64,000 nucleotides of DNA from Armatimonadota bacterium (GTDB taxonomy: Bacteria > Armatimonadota > Fimbriimonadia > Fimbriimonadales > Fimbriimonadaceae): the NCBI GenBank assembly GCA_020161505.1, contig JAIUNY010000002.1, positions 186,001-250,000 on the forward strand, given 5' to 3'. Positions 2,824 through 6,114 of the stretch are shown here, in pieces; positions within the stretch are counted from its first letter, which is position 1; each line of letters opens with the position of its first letter. A program made the translations under genes and the position numbers. The notes beneath the pieces were generated by a model. That model was not told the origin of the DNA. It ran no database searches and saw only the letters and a program-made list of their open reading frames with translations.

Positions 2824-3467
2824 TCGAACTCGCCCAAGCCTCGCTGGTGTATCAAGACCACGGGCGCGACGTTTTTGCCTGCCGGGAGATTGATCTGACG
2901 CTTGGGGATGGCGAGTTTCTGGGGATTCTCGGCCCGAGCGGATCGGGAAAGAGTTCTTTGCTCTATCTCATGAGTGGGCTCAAAATACCGTCGCTCGGCG
3001 AGGTGAAGTACCAAGGAAAGGGGCTGAACTCGCAATCGGACCATGCCCGCGCCCAGATCCGGCTGCGTGACTACGGCTTTGTCTTTCAGCATCCGTTTTT
3101 GGTTGGCTACCTCTCGGCACTGGAGAATGTGTTGATCGCCTTTCCGCATGAGGATCGGGAAGAAGAGGCCGTGGCGTTGCTCGGTGAGCTCGGCTTGAGC
3201 GAGCATCTTGACCGCTTGCCCCACCAGATGAGCGGAGGCCAGCGGCAGCGAGTCTGTGTCGCCCGGGCATTGCTCGGTTCGCCCCGTGTAATCTTCGCCG
3301 ACGAGCCCACCGCGGCTCTCGACCACACCAACGGTCTCGCCGTGATGGAACGGCTAAATCAGCACCGCGGCGCAGGGGCTCTCGTCGTCGTCACCCACGA
3401 CCCGTCGATGCTCGATCAAGCCGACCGAATCATCCGCATCGAGGACGGCCGGATCGTCGAGGGCTAG
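2820..3467 (+). CDS. ABC transporter ATP-binding protein (LolD/MacB type)
   Basis: This 215-residue ATPase has all ABC motifs: Walker A GPSGSGKSS near residue 39, Q-loop VFQHPFLVG near 88, signature MSGGQRQR near 138, Walker B VIFADEPTAAL near 158, and the H-loop VVVTHDPSM near 190. It energises the permease encoded just upstream, with a four-base ATGA overlap. The family usually exports lipoproteins or macrolides. No periplasmic adaptor gene sits beside it. Its TAG stop lies in a CTAG shared with the stop of the HNH gene on the other strand. Confidence 0.93.
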   Translation: MIELAQASLVYQDHGRDVFACREIDLTLGDGEFLGILGPSGSGKSSLLYLMSGLKIPSLGEVKYQGKGLNSQSDHARAQIRLRDYGFVFQHPFLVGYLSALENVLIAFPHEDREEEAVALLGELGLSEHLDRLPHQMSGGQRQRVCVARALLGSPRVIFADEPTAALDHTNGLAVMERLNQHRGAGALVVVTHDPSMLDQADRIIRIEDGRIVEG

Positions 3468-4005
3468 TTATTACACCGCCGGAGACACGCGGCCAATTCG
3501 TCGGCTCGCCCCATGAGGTCTAAGATCTTCGCTCGGATGTCAAGGTACTCGGAGTACGCAGCCGGATTTCTGGCCCGAATTTCCTCCGTCCTTTCCATGC
3601 GTGCCTCCACTAGTTGCGCAATCGGGAAGAGTCTTCCGAGAATGGCCTCGGGATCAGTACAGTTCTTCTCGACGAAAGAGCGCCAGTGCTTTCCGCCCTT
3701 CGCCGAATTGCATGCGGAGCAGGATGGAACAAGATTCGCCACCGTGTGACCGTATCCGGAGTATTCGCCTGCACGAACCGTCGGAAAAAGATGATCCCAC
3801 GTGGTTGCCTCCGACCACAATAGACGCAGCAAGGTTCGTCGGGGATCTGACCAAGGCTCAACAGCTGGTCGTGAACGGCTTTGGCTGAAAACGCCTCTAC
3901 CCCGGCCCGGGCAGCGGCAAACATGTGACTGACCGTCGTCTTCCGCTTCCGAATGATTGAGTACGGCTGGAGGTGTGACTTTGCGCCTGCAATCAGACTC
4001 TTCAT
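3464..4005 (-). pseudogene. HNH endonuclease gene broken by a frameshift
   Basis: Two overlapping minus-strand frames together make one HNH protein of about 180 residues. The upstream frame runs from the ATG at 4003-4005 to CCVYCGR. The downstream frame resumes near 3811 with EATTWDHLFP and continues through LVPSCSACNSAKGGK to the stop at 3464. Joined, they give a CxxC...WDH...N...CxxCNxxKG zinc-HNH fold. One extra base near 3811-3813 would join them, so this is a one-base deletion, a sequencing error or, less likely, programmed frameshifting. If functional, it would be a small DNA nuclease of the restriction-associated type. No methylase or restriction partner is nearby. A strong palindrome lies just upstream at 4022-4050. 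Confidence 0.75.
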
Positions 4006-4021
4006 GCTGCGAGCGTAGCCC

Positions 4022-4066
4022 CTAATCTCCGCAACTTTTGCGGAGATTAGCCCGGTTAATCTCCGC
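4022..4066. repeat. 13-bp palindrome plus third half-site upstream of the HNH gene
   Basis: CTAATCTCCGCAA at 4022-4034 and its exact reverse complement at 4038-4050 are separated by three bases. A further TTAATCTCCGC copy follows at 4056-4066. The palindrome is 17 bases from the HNH start codon, where a repressor operator would be expected. Confidence 0.75.
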
Positions 4067-4151
4067 ATCCCGATCCACGCCCAGGAAAATCGGCCCAATC
4101 CTGGCACCCAGGCACAAGACTTGCCGTCGTATTTGGAGCAACCAAAAACAT

Positions 4152-4194
4152 CGGGACCTGAGATGTGGAAAATTGCACAAATTTTCTGGTCCCG
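4152..4194 (+). ncRNA. Nested stem in the speD leader (candidate regulatory RNA element)
   Basis: CGGGACC (4152-4158) pairs perfectly with GGTCCCG (4188-4194). Inside it GAAAATT (4168-4174) pairs perfectly with AATTTTC (4180-4186) around a GCACA loop. This leaves a nine-base internal bulge, TGAGATGTG, on the 5' side and a single T on the 3' side. A stem-bulge-stem of this kind is typical of structured RNA. It matches no riboswitch consensus I can recall. Strand and function are inferred from the downstream speD gene. Confidence 0.4.
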
Positions 4195-4450
4195 GTATCA
4201 TGGTTGGAGCGTCGGCAAACGGGCAGCCGGGAGCAGGCGCCAAAGGATGAGGACCTTCCCCCTTTAATCGAAGGAGGAACAGGTCACGGCACTGGTGCGT
4301 TTACGTACGGCGGTGTCTGGATCTGTCGGGTTTCACGAACGGTCTGCGGGGCCTCATCTTAGTCCGTTCGGTCGGGTTTCTCCCAGGGCCGGCATCTGCA
4401 ACGGAGCAGTCGCTGGTACAGGAACCGGGAACCTTTTGAGGGAAACACGA

Positions 4451-5062
4451 TTGGCTACCTTGAATATGCTCATCCTCGCCGCGCTGGGCGCGGTTGCCGT
4501 TCCTCTGTCTTCGCGACAGAGCATGACCAAGAAAATCTGGACCGCGATCAAGAATCTCGTTGCAAAGCCGAAGGCCGCTGTGGCCCCGCCGCTCATCGAC
4601 AACGACAAAGGCTGGCAGCTCATCCACAGCGATGACGCCAACAAATTTGAGCGCTGGATCAGCGAAGACCCCGAGGGTCTGCCGTATCTGAAAGGCGAAG
4701 AGCACTCGCTCGGCTCCCACATCCTCATCGAACTCTTTGGTTGCGACCAAAAGAGTCTCGAAAACGAGGCCAGTGTCGGAACCGCCATGCGCGATGCCGC
4801 CATCGCCAGCGAAGCCACGGTCGTCACCGATTCCTTCCACGAGTTCAAGCCCTACGGCGTCTCGGGAGCGGTGATCATCCAGGAATCGCACTACACCATC
4901 CACACCTGGCCGGAGCATGGCTACGCAGCGGTTGACCTGTTCTACTGCGGCGGCACCATCTACGTCGACCAAGCCATCGAGGTTCTGCGCGAGCAATTCA
5001 AGCCAACCAAGATGAAGTTCCTCGTCGTCCGACGCGGACTGCAAAGCGAAGTCGAAGGCTAA
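4451..5062 (+). CDS. speD: S-adenosylmethionine decarboxylase proenzyme, prokaryotic type
   Basis: SpeD makes decarboxylated S-adenosylmethionine, the aminopropyl donor for spermidine. The protein cuts itself before a serine that becomes the pyruvoyl cofactor. Here that site is the Glu-Ser bond in IQESHYTIHTWPEHGYAAVD, and the catalytic His and Cys follow in HTWPEHG and LFYCGG. The core begins at SLGSHILIELFGC. About 75 residues precede it, longer than the usual short N-terminus. I chose TTG at 4451 because GAGGG lies eight bases upstream; ATG at 4466 or 4523 is also possible. With the TTG start the N-terminus has a hydrophobic stretch, MLILAALGAVAVPL. speE follows after a terminator. Confidence 0.9.
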   Translation: MATLNMLILAALGAVAVPLSSRQSMTKKIWTAIKNLVAKPKAAVAPPLIDNDKGWQLIHSDDANKFERWISEDPEGLPYLKGEEHSLGSHILIELFGCDQKSLENEASVGTAMRDAAIASEATVVTDSFHEFKPYGVSGAVIIQESHYTIHTWPEHGYAAVDLFYCGGTIYVDQAIEVLREQFKPTKMKFLVVRRGLQSEVEG

Positions 5063-5084
5063 GCTGGCCCCGCAAGGTTGGATC

Positions 5085-5124
5085 GATCCCCTGTGCACTA
5101 AGTGCGCAGGGGATCTTGCTTTTT
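5085..5124 (+). terminator. Terminator between speD and speE
   Basis: A 14-bp stem, 5085-5098 with 5102-5115 (one G-T pair), closes a three-base loop and is followed by TTGCTTTTT. It lies 22 bases after the speD stop, so speE probably needs readthrough or its own promoter. Confidence 0.85.
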
Positions 5125-5172
5125 CAGCCCCCCGGACCCCCGACCACCGCTTGGTATCCTGCGACCGTTGCC

Positions 5173-6114
5173 ATGGCCGACCGACTGTTCTCCCAAAGCA
5201 CAGGCATGTTCATTGCCGAAACCCATACCGATGCCGTGACCTGGTTCTTCTCGGTCGATAAATTCCTCGTCGAAGGAAAAACCCAGTACCAGCAGTACCA
5301 AATCGTGGATATGCCGACGTTCGGCAAAACGCTGTTCCTCGACTACAAAATCCAGTCGAGCCTCCTTGACGAATACGTCTACCACGAGAGCATGGTGCAA
5401 CCTGCGATGACCCTCCACCCCAATCCAGAAAAGGTTCTGGTCTGCGGAGGCGGCGAAGGCAGCACCCTCTGGAACGCCCTGCAGCACAACACCGTCAAGT
5501 CCGCCACCATGGTCGACCTCGATGAAGAACTCATCGACATGGTGAAGGTTCACATGCCGGAATGGCACCGAGGCGCCTTCGAGGATCCCCGAACCACCCT
5601 TGTCCACCAAGATGCCCGCAAGTGGGTGGAAGACCACAAAGGCGAGAACTACGATGTCATCCTGAGCGACCTTCCTGGCCCGATCGAAGGCGGCCCCGCC
5701 CTCTATCTCTACACCAAGGAGTATTTCCAGCACGTCGCCGAAGCCCTCAGCGATGATGGGGTCTTTGTTCTTCAATCCGGTGCCTGCAACGAAACCTATC
5801 CCTATTGCTTCGCCTGCGTCCACCAAACCCTGGAAGCCCTCAAGGAAGTCTTCCCCGTGGTGCGCGGATACTACGGGCTGGTCACCACCTTCCAAATGCC
5901 GTGGGGATTCATCCTGGCCAGCAAGAGCCACGATCCGCTTGACCTCACGCCCGAGGAAATTGCCAAGCGATTCGAAGCCCGAGGCGTGACGAGCAATCGC
6001 TACTACACCCCGCGATTCCACCACGCCATGTTCACCCTGCCGGACTATATGTACCGCGAGATTGCAAAGGGCCGAGTCCTCACCGACGCGGAACCTTTTA
6101 TTTGGGATGCCTAG
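5173..6114 (+). CDS. speE: Spermidine synthase (polyamine aminopropyltransferase)
   Basis: This 313-residue enzyme transfers the aminopropyl group of decarboxylated S-adenosylmethionine to putrescine. It shows the family blocks: an N-terminal beta domain with QQYQIVDMPTFGKTLFLDYK, the YHESMVQPAM motif, the nucleotide-binding VLVCGGGEGSTLWNAL, the acidic VDLDEELI, and the catalytic loop DVILSDLPGPIEGGPA. The gatekeeper Asp of SDLPGP is present. ATG at 5173 is chosen because the alignment blocks start soon after it. Its supply gene speD lies just upstream. No putrescine-forming decarboxylase or agmatinase is in the window. Confidence 0.93.
   Translation: MADRLFSQSTGMFIAETHTDAVTWFFSVDKFLVEGKTQYQQYQIVDMPTFGKTLFLDYKIQSSLLDEYVYHESMVQPAMTLHPNPEKVLVCGGGEGSTLWNALQHNTVKSATMVDLDEELIDMVKVHMPEWHRGAFEDPRTTLVHQDARKWVEDHKGENYDVILSDLPGPIEGGPALYLYTKEYFQHVAEALSDDGVFVLQSGACNETYPYCFACVHQTLEALKEVFPVVRGYYGLVTTFQMPWGFILASKSHDPLDLTPEEIAKRFEARGVTSNRYYTPRFHHAMFTLPDYMYREIAKGRVLTDAEPFIWDA

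Follow-up and report, generated by a model that had tools for sequence, protein, structure and literature searches.

A conserved, covarying RNA in the speD leader of the Fimbriimonadaceae

The speD leader of an Armatimonadota bacterium contains a conserved and covarying RNA, which our computations found in a single copy per genome and exclusively at the speD position. The DNA analyzed, hereafter the window, is a 64,000-nt stretch of contig JAIUNY010000002.1 (GenBank assembly GCA_020161505.1, positions 186,001 to 250,000 of the forward strand). In this window, speD is located at 4451–5062 on the forward strand, encodes an AdoMet decarboxylase domain (Pfam PF02675, 127.6 bits) and begins with a TTG codon assigned by alignment. 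The next gene, speE (5173–6114, forward strand), encodes spermidine synthase (Pfam PF01564, 130.6 bits). SpeD has an N-terminal extension of about 90 residues (4451–4717) with a hydrophobic start, which is seen throughout the family. SAM decarboxylase, which commits SAM to polyamine synthesis, is an enzyme known to be under tight control. We consider that the folded leader of about 165 nt, together with the region pairing with the RBS, is probably a cis-regulator of SpeD synthesis specific to the Fimbriimonadaceae, acting most likely on translation initiation.

Structure and distribution of the speD leader RNA

Comparison of related sequences gives us high confidence that positions 4209–4375 form a structured RNA tied to speD. 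On the forward strand, P1 (4209–4240) is formed by GCGUC (4209–4213) and GGCGC (4236–4240) and contains a smaller stem, P1b (4219–4222/4227–4230). A long-range stem, P2 (4246–4255/4349–4358), encloses three hairpins, P3 (4257–4278), P4 (4279–4326, with an apical stem at 4295–4299/4304–4308) and P5 (4327–4346, pairing 4327–4331 with 4342–4346). The MFE structure of the window calculated from 4209 contained P1, P1b, P2, P3, P4 and a helix at the Shine-Dalgarno (SD) sequence and start codon; P5 was missing from it and was recovered by the alignment tests. A possible pseudoknot (4336–4370) joins CGAAC in the P5 loop (4336–4340) to GUUCG (4366–4370).

These helices were examined in alignment A1, which comprises 21 window-type (group A) leaders, including three near-identical pairs, aligned by sequence alone. 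RNAalifold predicted 44 pairs in A1, with two-sided changes in 29 of them. A fixed structure of 45 pairs (P1b, P2–P5 and the pseudoknot) was then counted on A1: 90.3% of its cells were paired, compared with 35–44% when the partners were slid by 1–3 columns, two-sided changes numbered 154 cells versus 28–43, and none of 500 column shuffles reached any of these measures. In a tree-aware null of our own, constructed in the manner of R-scape, two of 17,020 pairs were significant at E < 0.05; both belonged to P2, the stem with the strongest covariation, which supplied four of the top five pairs. When the two strands of each helix were swapped among 18 leaders, a leader's own strands were favored for P2 (z −8.7), P3 (z −7.7) and P4 (z −6.3), none of 5000 permutations matching the result in each case, and for P5 the value was z −2.75. 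P3 and P4 were thus recovered by RNAalifold, strand swapping, the window MFE and the fixed-structure count alike. The pseudoknot gave z −0.18 in the same test, despite 90.5% of its cells being paired; since the strands of P1 and of the pseudoknot hardly vary, neither can be judged by swapping, and the pseudoknot is best regarded as possible, being compatible with the alignment but not independently supported. RNAalifold found no pairs in the 3′ domain when leader types were mixed. In 4209–4375, the leader of a metabolic gene accordingly carries a folded domain that is both conserved and covarying, one of the features expected of a riboswitch.

A covariance model of group A leaders (R1) gave 22 strong matches (99.6–158.5 bits), one per genome, among 113 genomes of the order. 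All were in the family Fimbriimonadaceae, phylum Armatimonadota, and all 22 were located 62–160 nt upstream of speD; 21 of them had trained the model, so that this search tests exclusivity and not recall. There were also four weak R1 matches, one of which precedes speD by 109 nt in genome G029. Genome G119 carries a second, divergent speD-like gene (contig C5:214104–214439, 41% identity), at which no R1 match was listed. A second model (R2), built from the 5′ domain of the type B leader, detected 35 family matches of at least 38 bits, in as many further genomes and all upstream of speD; with three weaker matches included, 37 of 38 were upstream of speD, and no match was found outside the Fimbriimonadaceae at E ≤ 1e-8. 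The 25 weakest R2 matches (16.8–22.8 bits) were left aside. Together, types A and B account for 57 of the 78 speD-bearing genomes of the family. They share a GCGYC stem start just past the promoter, the long-range stem, a hairpin and the TTG start codon, and a GGGUUUCUC-like strand occurs in many leaders of both types. Strand swapping of the type B long-range stem gave z −2.4 (52 of 5000 permutations). In two short speD leaders, L081 and L082, the middle domain has apparently been deleted, whereas the motifs of the 5′ and 3′ ends remain; these two are natural deletion variants of the leader. A repeat element was rejected as an identity for the leader: searching its own genome at E ≤ 0.001 returned a single match, and the further matches sought at E up to 10 were weak (best E 0.006 over 25 nt).

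That each genome has one copy of the leader, and at one gene only, suits autoregulation as well as metabolite sensing, and the RNA could be a platform on which a regulatory protein, either SpeD itself or another RNA-binding protein, represses or activates speD translation. The hairpin loops and lengths in A1 also vary more widely than those of a typical compact aptamer. However, several internal positions of the leader are invariant, as in an aptamer, and no candidate protein was identified; a protein platform seems unlikely to us.

The inverted repeat at 4139–4206 and the speD promoter

A sequence-only reading of the window had drawn attention to a hairpin at 4152–4194, described as two perfect 7-bp stems nested with a nine-base bulge and a five-base loop about 260 bases before speD, and had raised the possibility of a lineage-specific RNA regulator. 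The outer stem (CGGGACC, 4152–4158/GGTCCCG, 4188–4194), the inner stem (GAAAATT, 4168–4174/AATTTTC, 4180–4186) and the five-base loop (4175–4179) are exactly as described, and the distance from the end of the hairpin to the TTG codon at 4451 is 257 bases. The supposed bulge is a 9×1 internal loop, in which nine bases are unpaired 5′ of the inner stem and one base 3′ of it. The hairpin extends outward through CAACCA (4139–4144) and TGGTTG (4201–4206) into an imperfect inverted repeat at 4139–4206, which relatives do not retain. The structure as originally drawn for these 43 nt has an energy of −14.3 kcal/mol, compared with −19.7 kcal/mol for the MFE structure, which uses a different inner stem. 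A second set of nested perfect 7+7 stems is present at 5505–5544 (two in the whole window), and such stems occurred in 11 of 30 dinucleotide-shuffled windows (mean 0.7), so that the pattern by itself is not rare. The segment 4136–4208 folds at −30.2 kcal/mol, versus −16.1 ± 2.9 kcal/mol in shuffles (z −4.9; reached by 0 of 200), and an equally stable fold was found in two of 457 sampled 73-nt windows with a GC content of at most 0.52.

The hairpin overlaps a sigma-70-like promoter. On the forward strand, a −10 box (TATCAT, 4196–4201), a counterpart of which is found ahead of the RNA in relatives as well, is preceded at a 17-nt spacing by a −35-like hexamer (TTGCAC, 4173–4178); the scan itself scored TGCACA (4174–4179) with TATCAT at a 16-nt spacing, giving 9 of 12. 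The −10 box is directly adjoined by the right arm of the hairpin, whose inner loop falls on the −35 hexamer. In 53 related leaders, from which types without a recognized 5′ motif were left out, a sigma-70-like promoter is situated 6–9 nt before the first RNA stem. The best −35/−10 pair averaged 8.95 of 12 in the 22 group A leaders and 9.87 in the 31 group B leaders, compared with 4.6 in shuffled upstream DNA, and the spacer was 17 nt in 39 of the 53. From the position of the promoter in the window and the 6–9-nt gap in relatives, transcription of speD would begin at about 4207–4210, past the hairpin. The sequence-only reading had itself named a start downstream of 4194 as evidence against its proposal.

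Conservation follows the same boundary. A blastn search of 4110–4470 against 101 genomes, in 76 of which speD was located, detected 12 relatives at E ≤ 1.6e-6 apart from the genome itself. These leader matches adjoin speD, and all 12 at the relatives' speD locus start at window position 4193 or beyond. Among seven same-genus leaders, the left-arm sequence GGGACC was present in six and the right-arm sequence GGTCCC in none. Because the right arm abuts the −10 box, the promoter occupies this position in relatives and the right arm is not conserved, the hairpin is, as far as sequence can tell, promoter DNA and not an RNA element. The covariation analysis that had been suggested for speD leaders yielded significant pairs in P2 of the downstream RNA, and the hairpin was not conserved; a lineage-specific RNA does exist in this leader, at 4209–4375 and not where it had been placed.

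The repeat may have a function as DNA. If a protein bound the dyad at 4139–4206 over the promoter, it would act as an operator controlling speD transcription, and could do so alongside the leader RNA. The dyad spans the region from −35 to −10, its folding score (z −4.9) is unusual, and GGGACC (4153–4158, forward strand), a possible protein site, is found in the six same-genus relatives mentioned; in addition, promoters of this genus have no good −35 hexamer, as might be expected if an activator were required. On the other hand, GGTCCC is absent from all seven relatives and the distance between GGGACC and the −10 box varies, being 37 nt in the window and 25 or 35 nt in same-genus relatives, and we assign the operator a low probability. 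That the hairpin is a transcribed regulatory RNA, as first proposed, is most improbable: despite its stable fold, it lacks conservation, lies across the promoter and was drawn with an inner stem that differs from the MFE.

Other features were observed nearby. The 9-mer TTTTCCACA, which we take to be a near DnaA-box, lies inside the promoter repeat (4164–4172, minus strand) and also near the promoters of some relatives; 9-mers of this type occur twice in the window versus 0.4 expected, a number equaled in nine of 100 shuffles. On the minus strand at 3464–4005 is an HNH-endonuclease-like gene (21.0 bits, slightly below the cut-off), seemingly split across two frames near 3830. Tandem palindromes, TAATCTCCGCAA/TTGCGGAGATTA, are located directly upstream of it at 4022–4067 and are possibly its operator.

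Predicted start-site pairing and upstream open reading frames

Between the folded domain and speD, the window contains a putative anti-SD strand (GUUUCUC, 4376–4382, forward strand) and the SD region GAGGGAAAC (4438–4446, forward strand). In the MFE structure, 4376–4380 pairs with 4442–4446 and 4368–4374 pairs with 4448–4454, so that the SD sequence and the TTG codon are buried. Pairing of the SD/start region with an upstream strand showed a weak excess over shuffles in group A (0.49 vs 0.35), where just three of 19 leaders were in the top 5% of their shuffles, and no excess in B/C, the sister types giving 0.50 vs 0.47. For the window itself, 16 of 60 shuffles were as high. A strand-swap permutation test of the SD and anti-SD strands across leaders gave no signal, and the GUUUCUC motif is absent from several group A leaders. 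Start-site sequestration is therefore a prediction for the window that lacks statistical support across relatives. Control by termination was rejected, as no terminator-like site occurs in 4209–4450; a strong terminator-like site is present 3′ of speD, at 5085–5115.

We infer with moderate confidence that the leader RNA acts on the initiation of speD translation. The speD mRNA would start at about 4207–4210 with P1, followed by P2 around P3, P4 and P5 and possibly by the P5-loop pseudoknot, and a short region 3′ of the folded domain would pair with the RBS and start codon. The pseudoknot strand (4366–4370) and the start helix share bases 4368–4370 and are thus mutually exclusive. The folded domain may respond to its own pathway, through SAM, decarboxylated SAM or spermidine, and our confidence in any particular ligand is low. 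Such a signal would shift the balance between the pseudoknot, through GUUCG at 4366–4370, and the helix burying the SD sequence and start codon; a folded domain stabilized by the signal could either free or trap the speD start.

Sister-type leaders differ from those of group A in their upstream reading frames. An ATG-initiated ORF of at least 40 codons that ends near the speD start was found in 33 of 39 sister-type leaders, compared with 6.8 expected (for example L047, L075, L163 and L175), and in one of 19 group A leaders, compared with 2.3 expected. These counts exclude incomplete or different leaders (L052, L080, L081, L082, L160, L186, L188 and L189), near-duplicates (L053, L064, L142, L173, L177, L182, L033, L035 and L046) and loci L083–L100, all of which are outside the family. 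The long ORF begins past the 5′ strand of the long-range stem. Four of the 39 leaders (L070, L077, L157 and L180) have no ATG in the stretch, leaving 35 for a test of openness: the ORF was open in 34 of these versus 16.3 expected, and its frame contained one stop over about 1,106 codons, the two remaining frames having 37 and 33, although openness is favored here by picking the ATG with the longest ORF. The three codon positions change equally, and the peptide accordingly shows no sign of selection.

A second type of upstream start was seen at position −4 of the speD TTG codon, where UUG or GUG occurs in 43 of 47 B/C leaders and 16 of 22 group A leaders (KTGATTG at the speD start, as in L050, L061 and L163). 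It opens an out-of-frame mini-ORF, mostly of 9–10 codons, that ends within speD. The mini-ORF is no longer than 12 codons in 43 of 43 B/C and eight of 16 group A leaders, compared with 35% inside speD. Its stop codon is TAG in 45 of 46 cases, and in 45 of 45 this TAG is built from a speD codon ending in T and the AG of the serine codon after it, AGC or AGT; elsewhere in speD, AGC or AGT makes up 154 of 555 serine codons, a comparison in which the TAG itself dictates the AG. In the genus of the window, the mini-ORF start has been lost from six of eight leaders, among them that of the window, where the −4 codon is ACG.

These observations bear on the idea that ribosomes, by translating an upstream ORF, expose or occlude the speD start, in the manner of orf34 of Salmonella speF. 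The excess of long ATG ORFs, their single stop and the 9–10-codon mini-ORF at −4 favor it in relatives. However, no amino-acid constraint was seen in the long ORF, group A has no excess of such ORFs, and there is no consistent SD-led ATG or GTG upstream ORF in group A and none in the window, which has also lost the −4 start. A conserved leader peptide was rejected for window-type leaders on the ORF counts, and leader-translation control is largely refuted for the window itself; as an account of this leader we judge it very unlikely.

Relation to known leaders and significance

At the gathering score, Rfam 15 gave no match anywhere in the window, which bears out the earlier remark that no known riboswitch was recognizable. 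A permissive scan of 3500–5200 (E up to 10) returned three matches far below gathering, one of which overlaps the hairpin at 4152–4194 on the minus strand; in 20 related loci there were three sub-threshold matches, none in a speD leader. SAM-I (RF00162) was absent from all 85 family genomes and present in three of 14 control genomes, as judged by the SAM-I covariance model and not by a separate model of the 13 published spermidine variants. Known riboswitches were thus rejected for the speD leader. In the open-licence literature, we found no riboswitch work on Fimbriimonas or Armatimonadetes and no noncoding-RNA work on Armatimonadota, and the main text of the genome-scale noncoding-RNA papers checked contains neither speD nor Armatimon-. 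Within that literature, the Fimbriimonadaceae speD leader RNA is apparently undescribed so far.

Four known systems offer comparisons. The odc1 (uORF-25-1) motif of alpha-proteobacteria is a pseudoknotted leader of ornithine decarboxylase in which the RBS is sequestered and the main start is UUG; it consists of one long hairpin with a pseudoknot between the 5′ end and the loop, with two nucleotides between its start codons and a conserved peptide of 11 aa (PMC8632094). The speD leader resembles it in that it is structured, precedes a polyamine gene and has a possible pseudoknot, putative RBS burial and a UUG start, and relatives of the window carry a second UUG/GUG start just upstream that opens a short out-of-frame ORF. 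It differs in gene (speD), phylum and its five-stem fold, and the start codons of the relatives are one nucleotide apart, with a mini-ORF of 9–10 codons. The tandem UUG starts and short peptide of odc1 are not found in the window (−4 is ACG), nor is its single extended hairpin with a 5′-end/loop pseudoknot, the architecture here having five stems. The spermidine riboswitch, a SAM-I variant, acts by termination and controls polyamine genes including speD (PMC10853860); the speD leader shares the downstream gene with it, but not the RF00162 match or a terminator-like site in 4209–4450. In the speF leader of Salmonella, translation of orf34 unmasks the RBS (PMC6386406). That leader is likewise a long structured one of a polyamine gene, and unmasking by an upstream ORF may occur in the sister types, but the window has no such ORF and the peptide sequence of the sister types is not conserved. 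The fungal SDC motif, an 11-bp hairpin upstream of SAM decarboxylase, lowers translation (PMC5640933); it too is a structured RNA directly before the gene of the same enzyme, and as a single hairpin it is structurally dissimilar to the five-stem RNA.

A wider proposal, which we regard as tentative and rather doubtful, is that the speD mRNA of the Fimbriimonadaceae gave rise to a riboswitch of a new class, sensing SAM, decarboxylated SAM or spermidine, and that its sister versions also carry an upstream ORF, long but sequence-free, as well as a tandem-start, out-of-frame mini-ORF of 9–10 codons that competes with the SpeD start. The speD leader RNA is in any event a testable object in the search for additional bacterial sensors of polyamines or SAM that have no relation to SAM-I. 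For the Armatimonadota, an almost unstudied phylum, a leader model with exact helices is now defined, and the relatives of the window constitute a natural series of leaders in which the folded RNA, the upstream ORF and the tandem-start mini-ORF are variously present or absent.
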